From Frankia sp. AiPs1 (GTDB taxonomy: Bacteria; Actinomycetota; Actinomycetes; Frankiales; Frankiaceae): a DNA stretch of 61,231 nucleotides. The stretch is from assembly GCF_023716945.1 (NCBI RefSeq), contig NZ_JAMQQF010000004.1, positions 1 through 61,231 on the forward strand, read 5' to 3'. The position numbers and the translations under genes are program-made. Under the pieces are notes generated by a model. That model made no database searches. It was given only the letters and a program-made list of their open reading frames with translations, and was not told where the DNA came from. This document shows positions 5,444 to 61,043 of this stretch, in pieces (position 1 is the first letter of the stretch; each line of letters opens with the position of its first letter).

Positions 5444-5462
5444 GAGACACCTCCCTGTCGTG

Positions 5463-5531
5463 GGAGGCGCCCTTGGTGACCGGTGCGGGTCGAGCGTGGC
5501 GGACCTCGGTCCGTTGCAGCGCCTCTCGACC
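5463..5531 (-). promoter_or_regulatory. SAH riboswitch in the metH leader
   Basis: Read on the minus strand, the metH 5' leader has the order expected of the S-adenosylhomocysteine riboswitch: GGTCGAG (pseudoknot strand, 5531-5525), GAGGCGC (P1, overlapping slightly), the conserved joining bases TGCAAC, a GGAC-cgag-GTCC hairpin (P2), CTCGACC (second pseudoknot strand, an exact complement of the first), then AAGG and GCGCCTC (P1 3' strand, an exact complement). The P1 3' strand ends about 8 nt before the GGGAGG ribosome-binding site. In the known class, SAH binding switches expression on; a translational effect would fit this spacing. Confidence 0.82.
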
Positions 5532-5733
5532 TGACAACGACGATACCGTGCCCGCGTGATCGCTTGGCGCCAGCTCGGGTAGTAGCAGGTCGGCGCAGGG
5601 ATCCCCGCCTTGCGCGGGGTTCCGGGAGCCGCCCAGCCGGTCCGCGGGGTCCGGGACGTGGCGCGGACCATCGCCGGCCGGGACCGGGCGGCCGACCCGA
5701 CCGCTCGCGTGATCTTGATGTGGTGTTTCTTGG

Positions 5734-10119: not shown

Positions 10120-10194
10120 GGTCCCGTGGTGAAGTCTGGAGTTCACGCCGCCCTGTCAAGGCGGAGGTCGCGGGTTCGAATCCCGTCGGGACCG
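10120..10194 (+). tRNA. tRNA-Asp (GTC)
   Basis: The acceptor stem GGTCCCG/CGGGACC, the anticodon arm CCGCCCTGTCAAGGCGG with anticodon GTC, and a GGTTCGAAT T-loop are all present. CCA is not encoded. The gene is followed 50 bp later by tRNA-Phe. Confidence 0.96.
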
Positions 10195-10244
10195 CGTTCG
10201 TATGGCCGGGAGTCATCTCGGTCCCTACGTTTCTGCACAACCCG

Positions 10245-10321
10245 GGGCAGGTAGCTCAGTCGGTACGAGCGTCCGCCTGAAAAGCGGAAGGTCGGCGGTT
10301 CGACCCCGCCCCTGCCCACCA
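10245..10321 (+). tRNA. tRNA-Phe (GAA)
   Basis: The acceptor stem GGGCAGG/CCTGCCC, the anticodon arm TCCGCCTGAAAAGCGGA with anticodon GAA, and a GGTTCGACC T-loop are present. Discriminator A at 10318 is followed by an encoded CCA. No duplicated 3' tRNA end, as expected for an intact integrated element, was seen elsewhere in the window. Confidence 0.96.
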
Positions 10322-11442: not shown

Positions 11443-12486
11443 TCAGGCGAGGTTCGACCGGGTCGTGGTCAGTACGGCGGCGACCGGTCGGCGGGGTGTC
11501 CGCGGGGCAGGGTCGACGGCCGGTGGCCAGCCGACCCGCAGGATCATCTGCGGGTGGTCGAGCCAGGTCATGAGCGTCCGGACCCGGGTGCGAACTCCAG
11601 GCAGGTCGAGTGCCTGCGTCATCGCGGAGGTGGCCAGCCCCAACCGCTCGGCGTCCACCGACAGCCGGGCGTAGGCCTCGCCCGCTCTCAGTCGGGCGGC
11701 GTCGTCGTCGTCGAGGCTGAACAGCACCACGTACGCCGGCTGTTCGTCGATCACCTGGCCGCCCCTGATGGCAGTGGACGTCGGGTCGCCGGCCGCGAAG
11801 TCGCGGACCGGCACGTCGGTGTGGCGGGGCTGACCGGGTGAGGTGCGCGGGACGGCGGTCGGTGAGATGCCTTCGCCGGCGGCTGCCGCGTCCGGCCGGA
11901 CCCAGGTGGCCAACTCCGCCCGGTACGCCGGGTCGTTCGTTTCCAGGTCGTCGGCCCAGGACATCGCGACCGCGAGGTTGAGCCGGTCGTCGGCCCGAAG
12001 CACGAGGGACGCGTACAGCGAGGGATCGTCGACACCGGCACGCAGGACGTGTAGCAGGTCGGTCGAGACGACGCCAGGACGAAACGGCCGCCGCTCGGTG
12101 CGGCGCCGTCCGGCCGCCGCGACCGCCTCGTCGACGTTCCCGTCCACCGGCTGCCGTCCGTCGAAATGAAGGCGAGCCAGCAGGTCGGGCCTGGTCGAGT
12201 CGGGTAGCCGTTCGGTCGTGGTCCGCCAGCCCTCGGCCGACAGTCCCAGACCGGCCAGGTACAGCGCGCCGCCGCACGAGATCAGCAACGCCCAGCCGTC
12301 CGGGTCGACCGCGGCGAGCTGGCGCTGGCGGTCGGCCCACAGCTCGAGGGCGTCCGCCGTAAGCACGAACCGCCACGGCTGGGTGTTGTGGATCGACGGG
12401 GCCCTCACCGCGAGCGCGACGGCCCGCTGGATCTCCTCGACCGACGGCTGCGTGGCTTCGCCGACGCCGCTGCGGGTGGAGGTCAT
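11443..12486 (-). CDS. Acg-type nitroreductase-family protein
   Basis: This 347-residue protein resembles the mycobacterial Acg family of flavin-binding nitroreductase-fold proteins. It has 'RAPSIHNTQPWRF' near the N-terminus, two tandem half-domains, 'RRRTERRPF' in the middle, and 'GLATSAMTQALDLPGVR' and 'PQMILRVGWP' toward the C-terminus. Family members are redox or dormancy-associated; the reaction is not established. The ATG at 12486 overlaps the stop of a 35-codon upstream ORF (ATGA), implying coupled translation. A GTG at 12603 in the same frame is an alternative. Expression is probably driven by the conserved promoter-leader at 12591-12735. Confidence 0.85.
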   Translation of the reverse strand: MTSTRSGVGEATQPSVEEIQRAVALAVRAPSIHNTQPWRFVLTADALELWADRQRQLAAVDPDGWALLISCGGALYLAGLGLSAEGWRTTTERLPDSTRPDLLARLHFDGRQPVDGNVDEAVAAAGRRRTERRPFRPGVVSTDLLHVLRAGVDDPSLYASLVLRADDRLNLAVAMSWADDLETNDPAYRAELATWVRPDAAAAGEGISPTAVPRTSPGQPRHTDVPVRDFAAGDPTSTAIRGGQVIDEQPAYVVLFSLDDDDAARLRAGEAYARLSVDAERLGLATSAMTQALDLPGVRTRVRTLMTWLDHPQMILRVGWPPAVDPAPRTPRRPVAAVLTTTRSNLA

Positions 12487-12590
12487 GTCGGCCACCCGTC
12501 GGAGGTCGCCGGGAGCTGGCGTCCACCGTCGCCGGGACCGGGAGAGCCGTCGCGGTGGGCGGATGGAATGTTGACGGACAACCGGAGCAT
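12483..12590 (-). CDS. 35-residue leader peptide ORF before nitroreductase
   Basis: The ATG at 12590 occupies exactly the position that the PP2C start codon occupies in the second copy of the leader, and its stop overlaps the nitroreductase ATG as ATGA. The product begins MLRLSVNIPSAHRDG and is Gly/Pro-rich with no recognisable domain. GTGGGGAC upstream can serve as ribosome-binding site. It could be a coupling peptide or simply the leader's end; if GTG 12603 is the true nitroreductase start, this ORF is spurious. Confidence 0.45.
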   Translation of the reverse strand: MLRLSVNIPSAHRDGSPGPGDGGRQLPATSDGWPT

Positions 12591-12699
12591 GGCGGGTCCC
12601 CACAGGGAGAGATCACCGTGAGGTCCGGCGGCGAGCGAGAACGCTCCCGGGCGCGGCGCAGGCGCGGCGCTTCGGTTCCGAACTGGCTGATAGCCCAGC
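12591..12699 (-). ncRNA. conserved structured 5' leader, copy 1 (nitroreductase)
   Basis: Read on the minus strand, this ~110-nt block from GCTGGGCTATCAGCC to the ATG is about 88% identical to 14605-14712 in front of the PP2C gene. Differences are concentrated in loops: a GAGCG/CGCTC stem is kept while all four loop bases change (TTCT here, GGAC there). TTCGG/CCGAA pairs here become TTCGG/CCGGA there, keeping pairing by a wobble. GGCTG-ggctat-CAGCC can form a hexaloop hairpin. A region of 28 identical bases (CGCTCGCCGCCGGACCTCAC...) precedes the ribosome-binding site. No family was recognised. Confidence 0.6.
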
Positions 12700-12735
12700 C
12701 GCTTGAGATTGCGCGCCCGGCGTCCTTCTTGTCAA
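12700..12735 (-). promoter_or_regulatory. promoter of leader copy 1
   Basis: On the minus strand, GTCGGCCAGTTGACA supplies a perfect -35 (TTGACA at 12735-12730). A weak -10, CAATCT, follows after 18 nt. The distance from TTGACA to the conserved leader is 30 nt, exactly as in the second copy, although the sequence between is not conserved. Confidence 0.55.
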
Positions 12736-12773
12736 CTGGCCGACGATCTCGGCCTCAGGCCGGGTCGGTCGGG

Positions 12774-13331
12774 TCACAGGGATGCCAGTAGCCGCCGGCT
12801 CGCGGTGGCGACGTCGGTGTGGGCGTCGCTGGCCCGCCGCTGCAACTCATCGCGAGCTGCCTCGGGCAGTAGGCCCCGGTCGACGAGCGCCCCAACTGCC
12901 TGGTCGACGACGCGTTGCTCGGCCAGCGAGGTCCAGAAGGACTCGCCGCTCACGGCCGCTGGCCAGATCAGGTGCTGGTCCACCGCGAGCGGCGGGTGGT
13001 TCGGCCCGAGTAGCGTGCCGAGATCCTCGGCCAGCCGCACGAACGCTCCGGGCTTCCCTGCACGCAGGACCAGGACCGCGGCGGGGACGACAGCGGACAG
13101 CGGCACCGCCAGCGAGGCGAGCACCGCGACCGGCGCCGCGACGCTGTCGGCCGCCCTGACGTCGATCGCGCCCCCCAGCGAGGCGAGGGTGATCGTCACA
13201 ACAAAGCAGGACGGCACCGCGAGAACGACGTCCCGGCCGAGCGCACTCAGCTCGGCCGCGAGGCCGTCCCCGCTGAGGTCTTCACCCTGGAGGAGTCGCA
13301 GGTGTTCGGCCACTGCCGCGGTGACCTGCAC
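12774..13331 (-). CDS. ANTAR-like protein with degenerate sensor domain
   Basis: The 185 residues start at GTG 13331 after AGGAGAG; ATG 13355 is an alternative without a ribosome-binding site. The first ~120 residues look like a poorly conserved GAF-like sensor (CFVVTITLASLGGAID, then a second half with FVRLAEDLGTLLG). The last ~55 residues (VVDQAVGALVDRGLLPEAARDELQRRASDAHTDVATASRRLL) follow the ANTAR three-helix pattern, which in characterised proteins binds paired RNA hairpins and prevents termination. It is co-directional with the second ANTAR gene, and both lie between the two copies of the conserved leader. Confidence 0.7.
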   Translation of the reverse strand: MQVTAAVAEHLRLLQGEDLSGDGLAAELSALGRDVVLAVPSCFVVTITLASLGGAIDVRAADSVAAPVAVLASLAVPLSAVVPAAVLVLRAGKPGAFVRLAEDLGTLLGPNHPPLAVDQHLIWPAAVSGESFWTSLAEQRVVDQAVGALVDRGLLPEAARDELQRRASDAHTDVATASRRLLASL

Positions 13332-13591
13332 GGTGCTCTCCTGACAAGCGCACATTGCGCCGGGTCCCGGCCCAGTGACGACGTCTGGCGGCACGGCTAG
13401 CAGGCCGACACCCGCTCGTCGTGATCCGGGACTGAGTGTGCCAGGCGACGTCCGAGGCGGGATGGGTGAAGCTGTCCGGCCCCGCCGCGTCGCGCAGGCT
13501 GCGGATGACTGCCAATCCGCCTCCCCGACCGTAGTCCCCTCCGCGTCCGTCCGCCTCGGCAGTGATGGCTGACCGACGTCCCGCAGTGCGA

Positions 13592-14332
13592 TCAGTACGA
13601 GGCGACGTCTGGCCCGGCAGCGGGTTTTCGGGCGCGGGCACGGCGGACCGCCTCCTCCACCAGCACCCGGGCCACCTCGGCGACCTTGACGTGCTGGGAC
13701 TGGCTCATCGCCCGCAGCCGGTCGAACGCCTCCTCGGGTGTCACTCCCGTCCGACTCATGATCACCCCGAGCGCCTGATCGATGACCGCCCGATTGGTCA
13801 TGGCCGCTTCCAGCTGCGCTGCCAACCGGTGCGACTGAGCCAGGATCTGCGCGTTGTGCACCGACACCGCCGCCGGTCGGGCGAACAGCTCCCCGATCCG
13901 GACTGCCTCCGGACCGAACGCGTTCTTCGCGTGGGCGTAGACGTTCATCGCGCCCACCACCCGGTCGGGAAGCAGCAGCGGCAACGAGAGCACGCTGTGC
14001 ACACCCATCCGCCCGACCCGCGGGCCGAACCGTGGCCAGCGGGCCTCCCCGCCCAGCGAGCCCGACGTCTGCGTCGTTCGCGACGCGACCGCCTGCAGGC
14101 ACGGCCCCTCGCCGAGCCCGTACTGCACGTCGTCCACCACGCGCACGAACTCGGCGCTCGCCACCACCGTCTGCGGCCGGTCGTCCTCGAGCATCGTCAG
14201 GCCCGCACCCTCCGCACCGGGAATCGCCCGCACCCCGAACTCCGCGATATTGACCAGCGTCTCCTGTAACGGCTGGTAGCCCGTCAGCAGCCCCGACAGC
14301 CCGGCCAAGCTTTCATCGAGGTCGTCGTTCAC
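13592..14332 (-). CDS. GAF-ANTAR regulator
   Basis: This 246-residue protein has an N-terminal GAF sensor domain (residues ~15-165, with 'GAEGAGLTMLEDDRPQTVVAS', 'YGLGEGPCLQA' and 'VHSVLSLPLLLPDRVVGAMNVYA') and a C-terminal ANTAR domain (about 180-235, 'AMTNRAVIDQALGVIMSRTGVTPEEAFDRLRAMSQSQHVKVAEVA'). ANTAR proteins act on nascent RNA as antiterminators. GTG 14332 follows GGAGAG. It points away from the PP2C gene, and the ~380 bp between them contains leader copy 2. The short gap to the downstream ANTAR-like gene (260 bp) allows co-transcription. Confidence 0.9.
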   Translation of the reverse strand: MNDDLDESLAGLSGLLTGYQPLQETLVNIAEFGVRAIPGAEGAGLTMLEDDRPQTVVASAEFVRVVDDVQYGLGEGPCLQAVASRTTQTSGSLGGEARWPRFGPRVGRMGVHSVLSLPLLLPDRVVGAMNVYAHAKNAFGPEAVRIGELFARPAAVSVHNAQILAQSHRLAAQLEAAMTNRAVIDQALGVIMSRTGVTPEEAFDRLRAMSQSQHVKVAEVARVLVEEAVRRARARKPAAGPDVASY

Positions 14333-14568
14333 AGACTCTCCGATCCGCTGTGCGACGCATATGCTGCCACCCCTGAAACGGTAGCCCCCTGGGAATCTGC
14401 AGGCAGACGCCAGGATCAAGGCCCCAGAAATGTGATGACGGCCGGGCGCGGCACGACGCCGCTACCGGGTCTGTGGACCCGGACACGTACCGATGTGGCC
14501 GCCGCGAGCCGGCAGCTACTCGCGACGCTGCGCGCACCGGCGCTGGTTGAGATCGAGGATGTCGGCCG

Positions 14569-14604
14569 TTGACAGCCGCTGCCTGAGGCGTGCATGCTTT
14601 ATGA
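14569..14604 (+). promoter_or_regulatory. promoter of leader copy 2
   Basis: GTCGGCCGTTGACA gives a perfect -35 at 14569-14574. A weak CATGCT lies 18 nt downstream. The 30-nt spacing to the conserved leader and the GTCGGCC box match copy 1. Confidence 0.55.
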
Positions 14605-14712
14605 GCTGGGCTATCAGCCAGTTCGGGACCGGAGCGCCGCGCCTACGCCGTGCCTCGGGAGCGGGACCGCTCGCCGCCGGACCTCACGGTGATCTTCCCG
14701 TGGAGACACGCC
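14605..14712 (+). ncRNA. conserved structured 5' leader, copy 2 (PP2C)
   Basis: This is the inverted partner of 12591-12699. It runs from GCTGGGCTATCAGCC to the base before the PP2C ATG and ends with GTGGAGACACGCC, which contains the ribosome-binding site. The hairpin GAGCG-GGAC-CGCTC keeps the stem but not the loop of copy 1. Similarity stops within a few codons of the start, so selection or recent duplication acted on the leader and not on the protein. Confidence 0.6.
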
Positions 14713-16383
14713 ATGTTCCTCCCGCCCAGCGCCATCCTGGGCGCGTCTGTGGTGCTGGTCGCTCTAGCCTTCCTCGCTGTGCGTCGCCAAGTAATCCGAG
14801 GAGGCGCCGCGCCCCCGGCGCTGCGTCAGTGCCTCGCGCCGGCATCCGACCCCGTAGAAGTGCTTGCTTGTTCCCAGCGTCGGACGTCGCCGGAGCACGT
14901 GAAGGACCCCGGCCGTCTCCAGGACAGGCCACACGCGGTGCTGGCGGACGGGTCCCAGGTGGGTTCTGCGCAGCGCTCAATGCCTCACCGACTGAATCGA
15001 GGGCCCATGCGGTCTCGTGCACAGGTCGGGGTAGCCGGGGACGAACCTCGAGGCCTGGTGGCCGTACCAGCGTTCATCAACGAGGCATCCTCGCCCACCA
15101 CGGCGGCCGGTGCGGACGGGCCGTTCTGCCGTCTCACCGCGTTGGCGAGCTCGCTGCTGGACGGGCCGGTCGCGTTCGTCGCCCTGCCCACGGCACCCGG
15201 CTCGGGGCGGCTGTCACCCAGCTCCGGGTCGCCACTTGGCCTGCTCGCGGACGCCTTCTGCCTGGATGTCCTGGACGGCGGAATGCCGCTGGTGGTCGAG
15301 GACGCGCGGACCGACCCGCGGACCCGGGACAACCCGCACGTCGCCACCGCAGGCGTCAGAGCGTGGATCTGCCACCCCATGAAGGACCCGGCGGGCGACA
15401 CCCTCGGCTCGTTCTGCGTCCTGGTCACGCTCGCGCGTGCCTGGTCGGCCAGGGACCGCGAAACGGTCGCCGGCCTCGCGTACGCGGCCGCGGGCGAATT
15501 CCACCTGCGGGGCGACATGGCCCGGGCGGCCTGCGACACCCAGCGGCTGAACGCGCTGACCGCGCAGACCGCGGCCCGCTCCCGCTACCTACAGGACAGT
15601 CTGCTGCCCCCGCACCTGCCCGGCGTCCCCGGGATGCAGGTCGCCGCGCGCTACCTACCCGCCGCGGACGGGCTCGGTGTGCTCGGCGACTTCTACGACC
15701 TGTTCCCCGGGCCGCGGAACATCGGCGGCCCCCGCCCCCTCACGAACAGAGGACCCCGGCCCCTCGCCCGTCAGTGGCCGGGCGGGCGTGGATGGCCCAG
15801 AGGACGATGGGACGCGGTCATCGGTGACGTCTGTGGCCACGGCGTGGAGGCCGCGACGGTCACGGCGCTGGCCAGGTACACCATCCGCGCCGACGCGGTG
15901 CGCGAGATTTCCCCGGCCCGGGTCCTCGCCCGGCTCAACGCCGCGCTGCTGGCCCAGCGACCCGACAGCGAGCGTTATCTCACCGCCGCCTACGTCATGC
16001 TGTTCCCCAGACGGGGACACGTCGACGCCATCCTCGCCTCGGCCGGGCACACCCCCGCCCTGCTGCGGGGCTCCGACGGCACGGTCCGCGCGGTCGGGCA
16101 CCACGGCCTGCCGCTCGGCCTGTTCGACCGAGCCGACCTGCACGACACCCGCCTGTCGCTGAAGCCCGGCGACACCCTGCTGCTCTACACCGACGGCGTC
16201 ACCGAAGCCCGGCGAGGCCGCGAAGAGTACGGCGAGGAACGGCTGCGCGGCCTCCTCGCCGACACCGGACGGCTCGATGCGCACGACCTCGCCCACGCCG
16301 TCGAGGACGACGTGCTTGCGTTCACCGGCGGCCCACACGCCGACGACATCGCCGTCCTCGCCCTGCGCGTCGCCGACGGCTAG
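14713..16383 (+). CDS. GAF-PP2C (SpoIIE/RsbU-type) phosphatase
   Basis: The 556 residues begin with a single hydrophobic segment (about 5-22, [16 protein letters not shown]), so it is probably membrane-anchored. A GAF-type sensor spans about 130-290 (with '[17 protein letters not shown]', '[18 protein letters not shown]'). A PP2C-type serine phosphatase follows from about 310 ('[10 protein letters not shown]', metal-binding 'LGDFYDLF', '[11 protein letters not shown]', '[12 protein letters not shown]', '[11 protein letters not shown]'). Such proteins dephosphorylate anti-sigma-factor antagonists. An Arg/Pro-rich insert (~50 residues) sits between the metal motif and GDVCGHG. ATG 14713 follows GGAG and aligns with the end of the conserved leader. 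Confidence 0.88.
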
Positions 16384-53388: not shown

Positions 53389-53521
53389 GTTTTGTGATCA
53401 TCGCCTGGTGGTGTCGACGGCAGCCCGCCAGCACCCTGGCGCGGGGGTCCGTCAGGACGGCGCGGGCGCACCGCACTGCCTGGGCACCGCCGGGCGTCCA
53501 GGTGCTTCGGTGGTCGGCTGC

Positions 53522-53593
53522 GCTCAGGCGCTCAGGCGCTCAGGCGCTCAGGCGCTCAGGCGCTCAGGCGCTCAGGCGCTCAGGCGCTCAGGC
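53522..53593 (+). repeat. 8-bp microsatellite, nine perfect copies
   Basis: Nine perfect copies of GCTCAGGC are followed by four degenerate copies (53594-53625) that enter the 3' end of the CobW-type gene and contain its stop region. Unit length is not a multiple of three, so copy-number change near the stop could alter the protein's C-terminus. Confidence 0.95.
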
Positions 53594-53611
53594 GTGCAGG
53601 TGCTTAACCGC

Positions 53612-54640
53612 TCAGGTACTCAGACGCCGGTATCGGGCGAGGCGACGCAGTCCGTCCGCGGCGGGACGGCCGGGGCGGGGCTGGAGGGCCGCCTCGAGCC
53701 GGGTGCGCACGGTGGGCTCGTCGAGATGCATGCCGATCGCGACCAGCCCGTCGGAAGCTTGCGTCGCGGGCCTGACCGCGACGTGGATCTGGCGTCCGAC
53801 GACATTGACGACGTGGCCGCGCATGCTCCGCCCGGTGTCCACGGTGACAGTGCCCTTGAGCCGGTACAGGTCCGCGGGCAGGTCCTCAAGCAGGTCGACC
53901 AGCCGGCCGGGATCGACCGGGCCGGTGGCGGGGACGGTCACCGCGCTGACCCGCGGGTGCGGCTCGCCGTCATGGTCGCCGTCGTGATCGTGCCGGGCCA
54001 GGGCCGCGAGCGGGAGTTCGTCGACCGGGTCGTGCGGGCTCGCGGCGTCGAACACGAGAACCGGGTCGATGCGGCCGTGGGTGATCTCGACGACGTGGGC
54101 GTGGGGATTGCTCGCGCGAACGCGGCCGGCGATCCGCGCCACCGTCTCGGCGCGGTCTGCCGGCGCAATCCGGTCGGTCTTGTTGATCAGGACGAGTGAG
54201 GCGGAGGCGAACCGGGCCGGCGGTAGGCCGCCCGTGTCGACGGTGTCGAAGTAGGCGGCGGCGTCGACCACGTCGACCAGACCACCGGGACGCACCCGGT
54301 CCACGCCGCTGAACCGGATGAGCCTGGCCAGATGCGGGGGGTCGGCCACGCCGCTGGCTTCCACGATCACCGCGTCCAGCCGCAACCGCGGATGGGTCAG
54401 CTTCGCCAGCGCCTGGTCCAGACCGTCGGTGTCCGGCAGGCAGCACAGGCAGCCGCCCGCGATCGAGGCCGGCTCGTCCACCTGGCCGGTGACCAGCGCG
54501 GCATCGACGTTGATCGCGCCAAAGTCGTTGACCACCACCCCGAGGCGCGCCCCAGGCGCCTGGAGCAGGTGGTTGAGCACCGTCGTCTTGCCCGCGCCCA
54601 GGTATCCGGTGAGCGCGATCACGGGTACTCGCACGCCCAT
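53612..54640 (-). CDS. CobW/COG0523-type GTPase
   Basis: This 342-residue metallochaperone-type GTPase has Walker A GYLGAGKTTVLN, the metal-binding GGCLCCL (CxCC), 'VIVEASGVADP', NKTD and a histidine-rich loop (HDHDGDHDGEPH) before the CobW C-terminal domain. Such proteins deliver zinc or related metals. ATG 54640 was chosen; GTG 54634 is an alternative. No Zur-type palindrome was seen upstream. The stop codon lies in the degenerate edge of the 8-bp microsatellite, so the final residues (RRLARYRRLST) may have been altered by repeat growth. Confidence 0.9.
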   Translation of the reverse strand: MGVRVPVIALTGYLGAGKTTVLNHLLQAPGARLGVVVNDFGAINVDAALVTGQVDEPASIAGGCLCCLPDTDGLDQALAKLTHPRLRLDAVIVEASGVADPPHLARLIRFSGVDRVRPGGLVDVVDAAAYFDTVDTGGLPPARFASASLVLINKTDRIAPADRAETVARIAGRVRASNPHAHVVEITHGRIDPVLVFDAASPHDPVDELPLAALARHDHDGDHDGEPHPRVSAVTVPATGPVDPGRLVDLLEDLPADLYRLKGTVTVDTGRSMRGHVVNVVGRQIHVAVRPATQASDGLVAIGMHLDEPTVRTRLEAALQPRPGRPAADGLRRLARYRRLST

Positions 54641-59396: not shown

Positions 59397-61043
59397 TTGG
59401 CGACAAAGCTGGGAAGTTCCTACACTCTGGAGACCATGATCGGCCGGGGTGCGATGGGTGAGGTGTGGCGCGGCCGGGATGAGGACGGCGAGCCGCTCGC
59501 CTTCAAACTCCTGTTGCCGGAGCTCATGATGGACCCGGAGATCGTCGCCCGGTTCATGCGGGAACGTTCGGTGCTCCTCCGGGTCGACTCGCCCTTTGTC
59601 GTGCGGGTCCGGGATCTCGTTGCCGAGCGCGGGCACCTGGCCATCGTCATGGACTTCGTCAGGGGTTCCGACCTGCGTCGTGAGCTGAGACGGCGCCGGA
59701 CGGTACCACCGGCGGAAGCGGTGGCGACGACCATCGACATTCTGACCGGGCTCGGGGCCGCGCATGAGCTCGGCATCATTCACCGCGACCTCAAACCCGA
59801 GAACGTGCTGCTCGACCGGCATGACGGCGGGTATCACCCGAAGATCTCCGACTTCGGGATCGCCGGGCTGATGGACGCGTCGACGCGGCTGACCCCGCGG
59901 CAGGGCATTCTCGGTACTCCGCTCTACATGGCGCCCGAGATGATCGAGGAGGGTGTCGCCGGCCCGCCTGCGGACGTCTATGCCGCGGGGCTCGTGCTGT
60001 ACGAGCTGCTGTGCGGGGTCACGCCGTTCACCGGGCGAGCGCCGCTGGCCATCCTGCGGGCGCACGTCGACCTGCTGCCCGGCCGGCCGCCGGACCTCAC
60101 CGACGAGCTGTGGTCCGTTCTCGCCGCCATGCTCGCCAAGGACCCGACCGCGCGGGCCGGGGCCGACCAGCTCCGGGCCGTGTTACCGAACCTCCACGGG
60201 TTGCCCGCGATTCGACCGCTGGCCACCCCGCCGCCGGCCATCCCGCTGTTCCCGACCGGCCGGACGATCCCGCCGGGCGAACCGCCCGAGCGGAAATCGA
60301 TCCTGCCGACCGAGCCGCCCGCGGGGCAGGTCTTGCCGGATGAGCCGCCCGCGGGATCTGTTCTGCCGGGTGTGTTGCCCGCGGGGCAGGTCTTGCCGGT
60401 TGAGTCGTCGGCGGGGTCGGTCTTGCCGGGCGAGTCGTCTGTGGGATCTGTTCTGCCGGGTGAGCCGCCCGCGGGATCTGTTCTGCCGGGTGTGTTGCCT
60501 GCGGGATTGGTCCTGCCGGGTGAGCCGCCTGCGGGATTGGTCTTGCCGGGTGAGTCGTCGGCGGGGCAGGTCTCGCCGGGTGGGCCGTCTGCGGGTTCAG
60601 TCCCGCCGGGCGGCGCTGTTCCGGGGGGTGCTGTTCCAGCCGGTGCTGTTCCAGTCGGCTCCAACCTCGACCGGCCAGGGGATCCCTCCGCCGGCTCGGG
60701 CGGACGTCGCCGACGTCGCCTTCTCACCGGCGCTCTCGTCGTCGCCGTCGTTATGGCCGTGGCCACGGCCACGGCGATCGAGTCGACCAACGGCTCGCCG
60801 TCCGACCCGTCGGCGCAGCTGCTGATCCAGGCACAAGCCAAAAACCAGCAGGCGATGGCGGGGCATCTCGCCCCCACGGCCAGCCCAGGTCCCGGTGCTT
60901 CCACCAGTGCCACCGGCGCCGGGCCACCGACGCCGGCATCCGCATCCGCACCGGCACCCGGATCCGCCTCGGCGGCGACGAGCCGAGCCCGCACGCGGCC
61001 GAGGTGCTCGCCGCCGTCGCCCGGATCCCGACCGGCAAGGTGA
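59397..61043 (+). CDS. Ser/Thr protein kinase with 10-residue repeats
   Basis: The 548 residues contain a complete Hanks-type kinase (about 8-270): IGRGAMGEVW, AFKLLLPE, HRDLKPEN, SDFGIAG, GTPLYMAPE. A juxtamembrane stretch follows with ten 10-residue repeats ([PSL][PS]AGxVLPG[EV]). Then RRRRR, a transmembrane helix (LLTGALVVAVVMAVATATAI) and a Ala/Pro/Ser-rich outer tail. TTG 59397 lies 9 nt after GGGAGGG; TTG 59373 is possible. The last ~20 codons are read out of frame over the 5' part of the alkyltransferase-like gene, so the native stop may have been lost. Confidence 0.88.
   Translation: MATKLGSSYTLETMIGRGAMGEVWRGRDEDGEPLAFKLLLPELMMDPEIVARFMRERSVLLRVDSPFVVRVRDLVAERGHLAIVMDFVRGSDLRRELRRRRTVPPAEAVATTIDILTGLGAAHELGIIHRDLKPENVLLDRHDGGYHPKISDFGIAGLMDASTRLTPRQGILGTPLYMAPEMIEEGVAGPPADVYAAGLVLYELLCGVTPFTGRAPLAILRAHVDLLPGRPPDLTDELWSVLAAMLAKDPTARAGADQLRAVLPNLHGLPAIRPLATPPPAIPLFPTGRTIPPGEPPERKSILPTEPPAGQVLPDEPPAGSVLPGVLPAGQVLPVESSAGSVLPGESSVGSVLPGEPPAGSVLPGVLPAGLVLPGEPPAGLVLPGESSAGQVSPGGPSAGSVPPGGAVPGGAVPAGAVPVGSNLDRPGDPSAGSGGRRRRRLLTGALVVAVVMAVATATAIESTNGSPSDPSAQLLIQAQAKNQQAMAGHLAPTASPGPGASTSATGAGPPTPASASAPAPGSASAATSRARTRPRCSPPSPGSRPAR
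60315..60614 (+). repeat. ten 30-bp repeats in the kinase gene
   Basis: Ten in-frame units of 30 bp encode [PSL][PS]AG[SQL]VLPG[EV]. DNA identity between units is high (for example GCGGGATCTGTTCTGCCGGG recurs), pointing to recent expansion. By topology the repeats lie on the cytoplasmic side, between kinase and membrane helix. Confidence 0.92.

Follow-up and report, generated by a model that had tools for sequence, protein, structure and literature searches.

The question raised by a locus of Frankia sp. AiPs1 is why two nearly identical blocks of about 110 nt, each behind promoter-like motifs, stand inverted around a pair of ANTAR genes. The locus lies in the window, the whole 61,231-nt stretch of DNA that was analysed (contig NZ_JAMQQF010000004.1, positions 1 to 61,231; the source genome has 7.35 Mb in 1203 contigs). 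From left to right it consists of a nitroreductase-family gene (-), block copy B (-), the two ANTAR genes (-), block copy A (+), and a gene for a GAF and SpoIIE/PP2C protein (+). A first-pass annotation, made from the sequence alone, had suggested that both blocks are RNA leaders on which the ANTAR proteins act. The blocks are indeed members of a real RNA family, previously uncatalogued and absent from Rfam, and from comparative sequence evidence the leader probably works under ANTAR control. In its full form this reading, to which we give a probability of about 0.6, would make it a translational leader of a new, ANTAR-linked kind, in which binding of a GAF-ANTAR protein switches a stem at the start codon (P4) and both flanking genes respond together.

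The blocks at 14603-14715 (+) and 12701-12588 (-) are 88% identical over 112 nt (E 1.9e-32, search against the own genome), the value first estimated, and they are the only two copies in the whole source genome; the many other blastn matches, 25-57 nt long, are short and look like chance. At both copies GTCGGCC lies 5' of a TTGACA hexamer, as had been noted, with an 18-nt spacer from TTGACA to a CANNNT hexamer; by the boundaries used here TTGACA starts 34 nt before the block rather than 30. The spacer between -35 and -10 has diverged while the transcribed block is conserved, in agreement with the earlier description, and the proposal that two transcription starts feed the same leader RNA is supported. 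TTGACA is confined to these loci; the family-wide promoter feature is the -10 box. The repeat extends beyond the blocks first described: upstream of copy A lies a remnant of the 3' end of the second ANTAR gene (ANTAR2). Thus, an ANTAR2 end formerly preceded copy A in the way that one still precedes copy B, and the duplicated unit comprised an ANTAR 3' end, promoter, and leader. That this unit was duplicated is certain. The same two leader copies surround the same genes in G022 (L025), which belongs to another genus of the same family.

A structure built by hand from the copies of G015 and G016 was turned into a covariance model, R1, and refined to R2 and R3. Of the 35 Frankiaceae genomes, 21 give an R1 match at E <= 0.1, the weakest matches (e.g. 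G011) being doubtful; R2 and R3 extend the range to Mycobacterium and to individual genomes from other families (G053, G043, G039). When 84,980 species genomes were scanned with a degenerate pattern and the matches passed through R3, the carriers were Frankia, Mycobacterium/Mycolicibacterium (among them sphagni, hodleri, scrofulaceum, deserti, and pinniadriaticum), two Rhodococcus, and one uncultured actinobacterium; no non-actinobacterial match was kept by R3 (60 pattern matches in named genomes). Altogether 81 copies were aligned, the weakest two or three of which (L155:15627, L070:7997, L025:5285) are uncertain. Rfam scans at gathering and permissive thresholds (copies of the window, L027, L166, and L070) returned only noise at the leader, and no description of it was found in the literature. 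The first-pass annotation had proposed a covariance-model search and held that a lack of further copies or of compensatory changes would count against it; both exist, with many copies in related genomes, compensatory stems, and stress genes downstream.

Several copies have features of their own. The L026 contig (G015 contig C540) carries four within 5.8 kb, as two divergent pairs before universal stress and ABC genes. A leader-like copy at L025:5285-5440 (-) has a P2 larger by ~45 nt. The copy at L027:4678-4778 (+), with an ANTAR gene 129 nt before it and a complete copy ~114 nt beyond it, has no proper P4 or start codon. After it come a strong GC hairpin and a T run, and it may represent a terminated RNA. 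Copies near GTGACA starts in L067, L068, L069, L070, and L076 form a second subgroup (GCTAGGACATAGCC...) with TATGCT -10 boxes, which usually opens a short open reading frame (ORF), ~32-49 codons long, in front of STAS or GlsB-like genes.

The family fold consists of a 5' hairpin, P0 (GCUG/CAGC, loop usually 5-6 nt); a long-range stem of six pairs, P1, closing a three-way junction with P2, which has a conserved C-C mismatch, and P3; and P4 (GGUG..CUCC/GGAG..CACC), which pairs the ribosome-binding (Shine-Dalgarno) region. In an alignment of 47 sequences, 89.7% of the cells are paired (34-43% in slid controls) and 23 of the 31 pairs show both-sided changes (7-11 pairs in the controls); conservation is highest in P0 and P1, at 97% and 98% paired. 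Because the structure had guided that alignment, 79 copies were also aligned by sequence alone. This second alignment is 70.7% paired as against 35-44% for slides, P1 reaching 96% with CG/UA/UG exchange. The number of pairs with both-sided changes is here no higher than in the slides (21 vs 15-22), but the cells with such changes number 150 as against 58-89. P1 is fully paired in 60 of the 79 copies, and in 39 after its strands were swapped among sequences. Single-sequence folding energies are unremarkable (z -1.9 to +0.9), as expected for GC-rich DNA, and the case for structure is carried by covariation, not by folding energy. Two hairpins of the earlier description can now be judged: the GAGCG/CGCTC stem is constant between copies A and B with all four loop bases changed, as described, whereas the local pairing of TTCGG with CCGAA/CCGGA is no better than swapped controls, the covarying partner of TTCGG being the long-range P1 strand at 14677-14682. 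The secondary structure of the leader is thus conserved, and its five helices show compensatory changes. These changes, far above the slid controls, together with a transcribed block preserved beside a diverged spacer, make it hardly credible that the blocks are a DNA-level feature such as a duplicated promoter or operator segment, or a mobile or recombination repeat, devoid of RNA function, even though the duplication and the promoter at fixed distance are what such a feature would show.

Both ends of the leader are fixed with respect to gene expression signals. A TANNNT box lies at or close to -10/-11 from the first base of the RNA in 76 of the 81 copies (73 exactly; background 0.0009 per position), and the other five, the pairs of the window and L025 and L027:4678, have CANNNT there instead. 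Because of this fixed box, the mRNA is predicted to start exactly at the first base of the leader. At the other end, nearly all copies have an ATG, GTG, or TTG 0-2 nt beyond P4. Both blocks of the window end at an ATG, as first stated, but that of copy B opens a 35-aa ORF rather than the nitroreductase itself; an ORF of the same length stands in the same place in L025, and the nitroreductase gene is probably translationally coupled to that of the window. Elsewhere, the downstream genes encode a 75-90 aa Frankia protein with no Pfam match, universal stress protein, ABC ATPase, STAS, PAS protein, or alpha/beta hydrolase, and in Mycobacterium a glycosyltransferase; slightly further downstream are genes for GlsB-like membrane protein, P-type ATPases, and alcohol dehydrogenase. 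Judged by their predicted products they are diverse, and many are stress-related. An earlier suggestion that phosphoketolase belongs to this set did not hold in the window, where the phosphoketolase gene has no leader; in L070, a phosphoketolase gene does have a weak copy in front of it. Since P4 pairs the ribosome-binding region, translation would be low unless P4 opens. An RNA thermometer or structural insulator, whose P4 melts or sets a low translation rate with no regulator, would equally have P4 over the ribosome-binding region in nearly every copy; it would have no need of a linked ANTAR clade or of P0-P3, two of which (P0 and P1) are the most strongly conserved helices, and is very improbable.

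The leader is linked to ANTAR genes well beyond the window. Of 16 genomes tested, with 3-15 ANTAR genes per genome, 13 have a leader no more than 3 kb from such a gene, against an expectation of 0.12 genomes. In Mycobacterium, Rhodococcus, and G039 the ANTAR gene is on the strand of the leader, mostly 12-150 nt upstream; in Frankia the two are divergent and mostly 130-560 nt apart. M. scrofulaceum (L148) and G427 (L164) have the same bracket of leader-ANTAR2-ANTAR1-leader, with different target genes. The leader-adjacent ANTAR proteins make up 12 of the 14 rows of one supported GAF-ANTAR clade (99/93), set apart from other ANTARs of the same genomes; the 12 include G022_A1b, which is ~2.2 kb from a weak leader copy. 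Within Frankiaceae, an orthologue of ANTAR1, the clade member of the window, occurs in 14 of 19 leader-bearing and 0 of 16 leader-less genomes, G009 being counted by partial contig-end matches. Among the five leader genomes with no ANTAR1, P0 is broken in G004 and G008 and P1 pairing is lost in G030 and G033; this decay is suggestive and represents about two independent events. Genomic adjacency to and co-occurrence with ANTAR genes are therefore both observed, and, taken with the shared bracket and the clade, suggest a specific protein partner. The earlier claim that the ANTAR proteins act on both leaders is thus well supported as a genomic link, and binding would be the further step. Other ANTAR genes also form tandem strong/weak-domain pairs with no leader detected (e.g. 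G000 C1036, G232 C2:822041-822931, G021 C1:2884014-2884919), and this paired architecture may be general.

The ANTAR-controlled leader can be pictured as follows. Copies A and B would be transcribed from their first base as 5' leaders that fold into P0, the P1-P3 junction, and P4. ANTAR1, probably with ANTAR2 as partner, would bind the leader, with P0, the junction hairpins, or both as the likeliest site; binding would shift P4 and change access to the start codon. We lean towards binding that opens P4, the bound state being ON. With its GAF domain sensing a stress signal, translation of the nitroreductase and the PP2C phosphatase would be switched together. The ancestral unit was presumably an ANTAR gene or genes followed by a leader, and inverted duplication in the window would have let one ANTAR pair serve two outward genes. 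There is an even chance that this represents a new class of ANTAR-recognised RNA: a three-way junction with no hexaloop pairs, read by GAF-ANTAR and degenerate-ANTAR proteins, in a post-transcriptional stress regulon of Frankia, Mycobacterium, and Rhodococcus.

A number of results weigh against ANTAR control: i) the adjacency of leader and ANTAR gene (P about 4e-26) and the co-occurrence with ANTAR1 (Fisher 1e-5) are statistics that ignore relatedness; ii) no leader was detected beside two members of the clade, G427 C4 and G408 C30; iii) G001 has an intact leader and no ANTAR1; iv) no ANTAR gene is near the copies L161, L075, L160, L162, those of the L026 contig, and that of G001; v) an alternative switch helix between the P1 3' strand and the P4 5' strand was no better than swapped controls; and vi) dual AxxGxx hexaloops occur in 0 of 81 copies, with 0.85 expected by shuffling.

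The main rival, a small-molecule riboswitch, draws on some of the same results. Its junction would bind a metabolite or second messenger and P4 would be the expression platform, the ANTAR genes merely sharing the stress regulon or the neighbourhood. A compact conserved junction plus a Shine-Dalgarno stem is riboswitch-like, the variety of downstream genes (glycosyltransferase, universal stress protein, STAS, PP2C, P-type ATPase, nitroreductase) resembles that of signalling riboswitches, and some copies have no ANTAR gene close by. A riboswitch, however, needs no protein neighbour, yet one ANTAR clade adjoins the leader and co-occurs with it across genera; nor does the leader match an Rfam riboswitch, and no strikingly conserved run of unpaired bases was seen. 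We consider a riboswitch unlikely.

The missing hexaloops bear on what kind of ANTAR target the leader could be. In the passages of PMC8164766 and PMC8934654 that define it, an ANTAR-target RNA has two stem-loops with hexanucleotide loops, A at position 1 and G at position 4, separated by a linker of 2-25 nt. Because the dual hexaloop is absent, the leader is not filed as a canonical ANTAR-target RNA; the first-pass annotation had likewise been unable to fit the published consensus. It could still be an ordinary target whose normal dual hexaloop is hidden in alternative pairings: it adjoins ANTAR genes, the P0 loop has six bases in 39 of 79 copies, and actinobacterial ANTAR targets are described in parts of PMC8164766 as loosely conserved. 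With no dual hexaloop and single AxxGxx hexaloops in no more than weak excess among the 81 copies, this is improbable. For EutV, one hexaloop is enough for binding (PMC8934654). The text of the actinobacterial survey PMC8164766, its supplements aside, makes no mention of Frankia, USP, GAF, or glycosyltransferase.

The features of the locus are collected in Table 1. ANTAR1 scores 67.9 bits against PF03861 (cut-off 27.3) and is a member of the ANTAR family; ANTAR2, at 24.5 bits, is slightly below the cut-off. In a structure model of moderate confidence, the C-terminal helices of ANTAR2 superpose on Rv1626 and EutV at ~1.2-1.3 Å, and Foldseek with this model gave no significant match (none at E < 0.001), only short ANTAR-domain superpositions. 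ANTAR2 is a probable heteropartner of ANTAR1.

Table 1. Positions of the leader copies, their helices and promoter motifs, and the neighbouring genes in the window
Feature	Position	Strand	Basis or remark
Nitroreductase-family gene	11443..12486	-	gene call and profile match
35-aa ORF opened by copy B	12483..12590	-	stop overlaps nitroreductase ATG (ATGA)
Leader RNA copy B	12591..12701	-	covariance models R1 105 bits, R3 74 bits
Copy B -10 position, CAATCT	12706..12711	-	sequence
Copy B -35-like TTGACA	12730..12735	-	sequence
ANTAR2, weak ANTAR domain protein	12774..13355	-	3' end ~75 nt upstream of copy B
ANTAR1, GAF-ANTAR protein, member of leader-linked clade	13592..14332	-	profile match, tree
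Remnant of ANTAR2 3' end upstream of copy A	14489..14530	+	81% match to 12777-12818
Copy A -35-like TTGACA	14569..14574	+	sequence
Copy A -10 position, CATGCT	14593..14598	+	aligned with family TANNNT box
Leader RNA copy A	14603..14712	+	covariance models R1 109.7 bits, R3 83.9 bits
Copy A P0, GCUG-hexaloop-CAGC, RNA 5' end	14605..14618	+	
Copy A P1 5' strand, GUUCGG	14621..14626	+	partner 14677-14682
Copy A P2 core, GCGC-C-GCG/CGC-C-GUGC	14634..14653	+	
Copy A P3, GAGCG/CGCUC	14659..14672	+	
Copy A P1 3' strand, CCGGAC	14677..14682	+	
Copy A P4, GGUG..CUUC/GGAG..CGCC	14688..14712	+	Shine-Dalgarno region beside start codon
GAF + SpoIIE/PP2C phosphatase gene	14713..16383	+	translated from copy A

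Elsewhere in the window are a match to the SAH riboswitch at 5458-5533 (-), at 38.2 bits against an Rfam gathering score of 37; a pair of tRNA genes at 10120-10318 (+), ~50 nt apart; an array of about a dozen copies of an 8-bp unit (GCGCTCAG) at 53496-53635; and repeats with a 30-nt period, possibly coding, at 60266-60655.

Actinobacteria have many GAF-ANTAR proteins, but to our knowledge few of the natural RNA partners of these proteins have been identified. For the present leader the structure is clear, a protein clade is linked to it, the candidate RNAs are short, and the target genes are defined, so that binding and control can be put to a direct test. Should an ANTAR protein bind the leader, ANTAR recognition would extend beyond the accepted hexaloop rule, and an RNA-level stress circuit would be common to Frankia and mycobacteria; if not, the leader is still a new riboswitch candidate.

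The closest known systems are the ANTAR-target RNAs themselves (EutV/eutP; Mehta and Ramesh 2021, PMC8164766), which in the parts of that survey devoted to them are, like the leader, cis elements in the 5' leaders of several operons and ANTAR-linked. Some of them extend over the ribosome-binding site and exert their effect at translation, as is proposed for the leader, and mycobacterial ANTAR proteins are reported in the same parts to repress translation at such overlapping targets. Unlike these RNAs, the leader is a hairpin, a three-way junction, and a Shine-Dalgarno stem of ~110 nt in all, running from the transcription start, with no tandem AxxGxx hexaloops and beside one GAF-ANTAR clade. 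In engineered riboptoregulators, the ANTAR photoreceptor NmPAL (PAS-ANTAR-LOV), which binds one hairpin, can close or open a Shine-Dalgarno stem (PMC11381354, PMC10966536). There, too, an ANTAR protein on a hairpin masks or frees the Shine-Dalgarno sequence, as is proposed here; the RNA is artificial and the sensor is LOV, whereas that of ANTAR1 in the window is GAF. Translational three-way-junction riboswitches share with the leader an aptamer-like junction core and a Shine-Dalgarno expression platform, but the leader matches no Rfam riboswitch and has a constant protein neighbour. Ribosomal-protein and PyrR leaders are autoregulated by protein, with the regulator gene beside its own RNA target, as would be the case here; the present leader differs in that it follows or faces the putative regulator gene and would control other genes.

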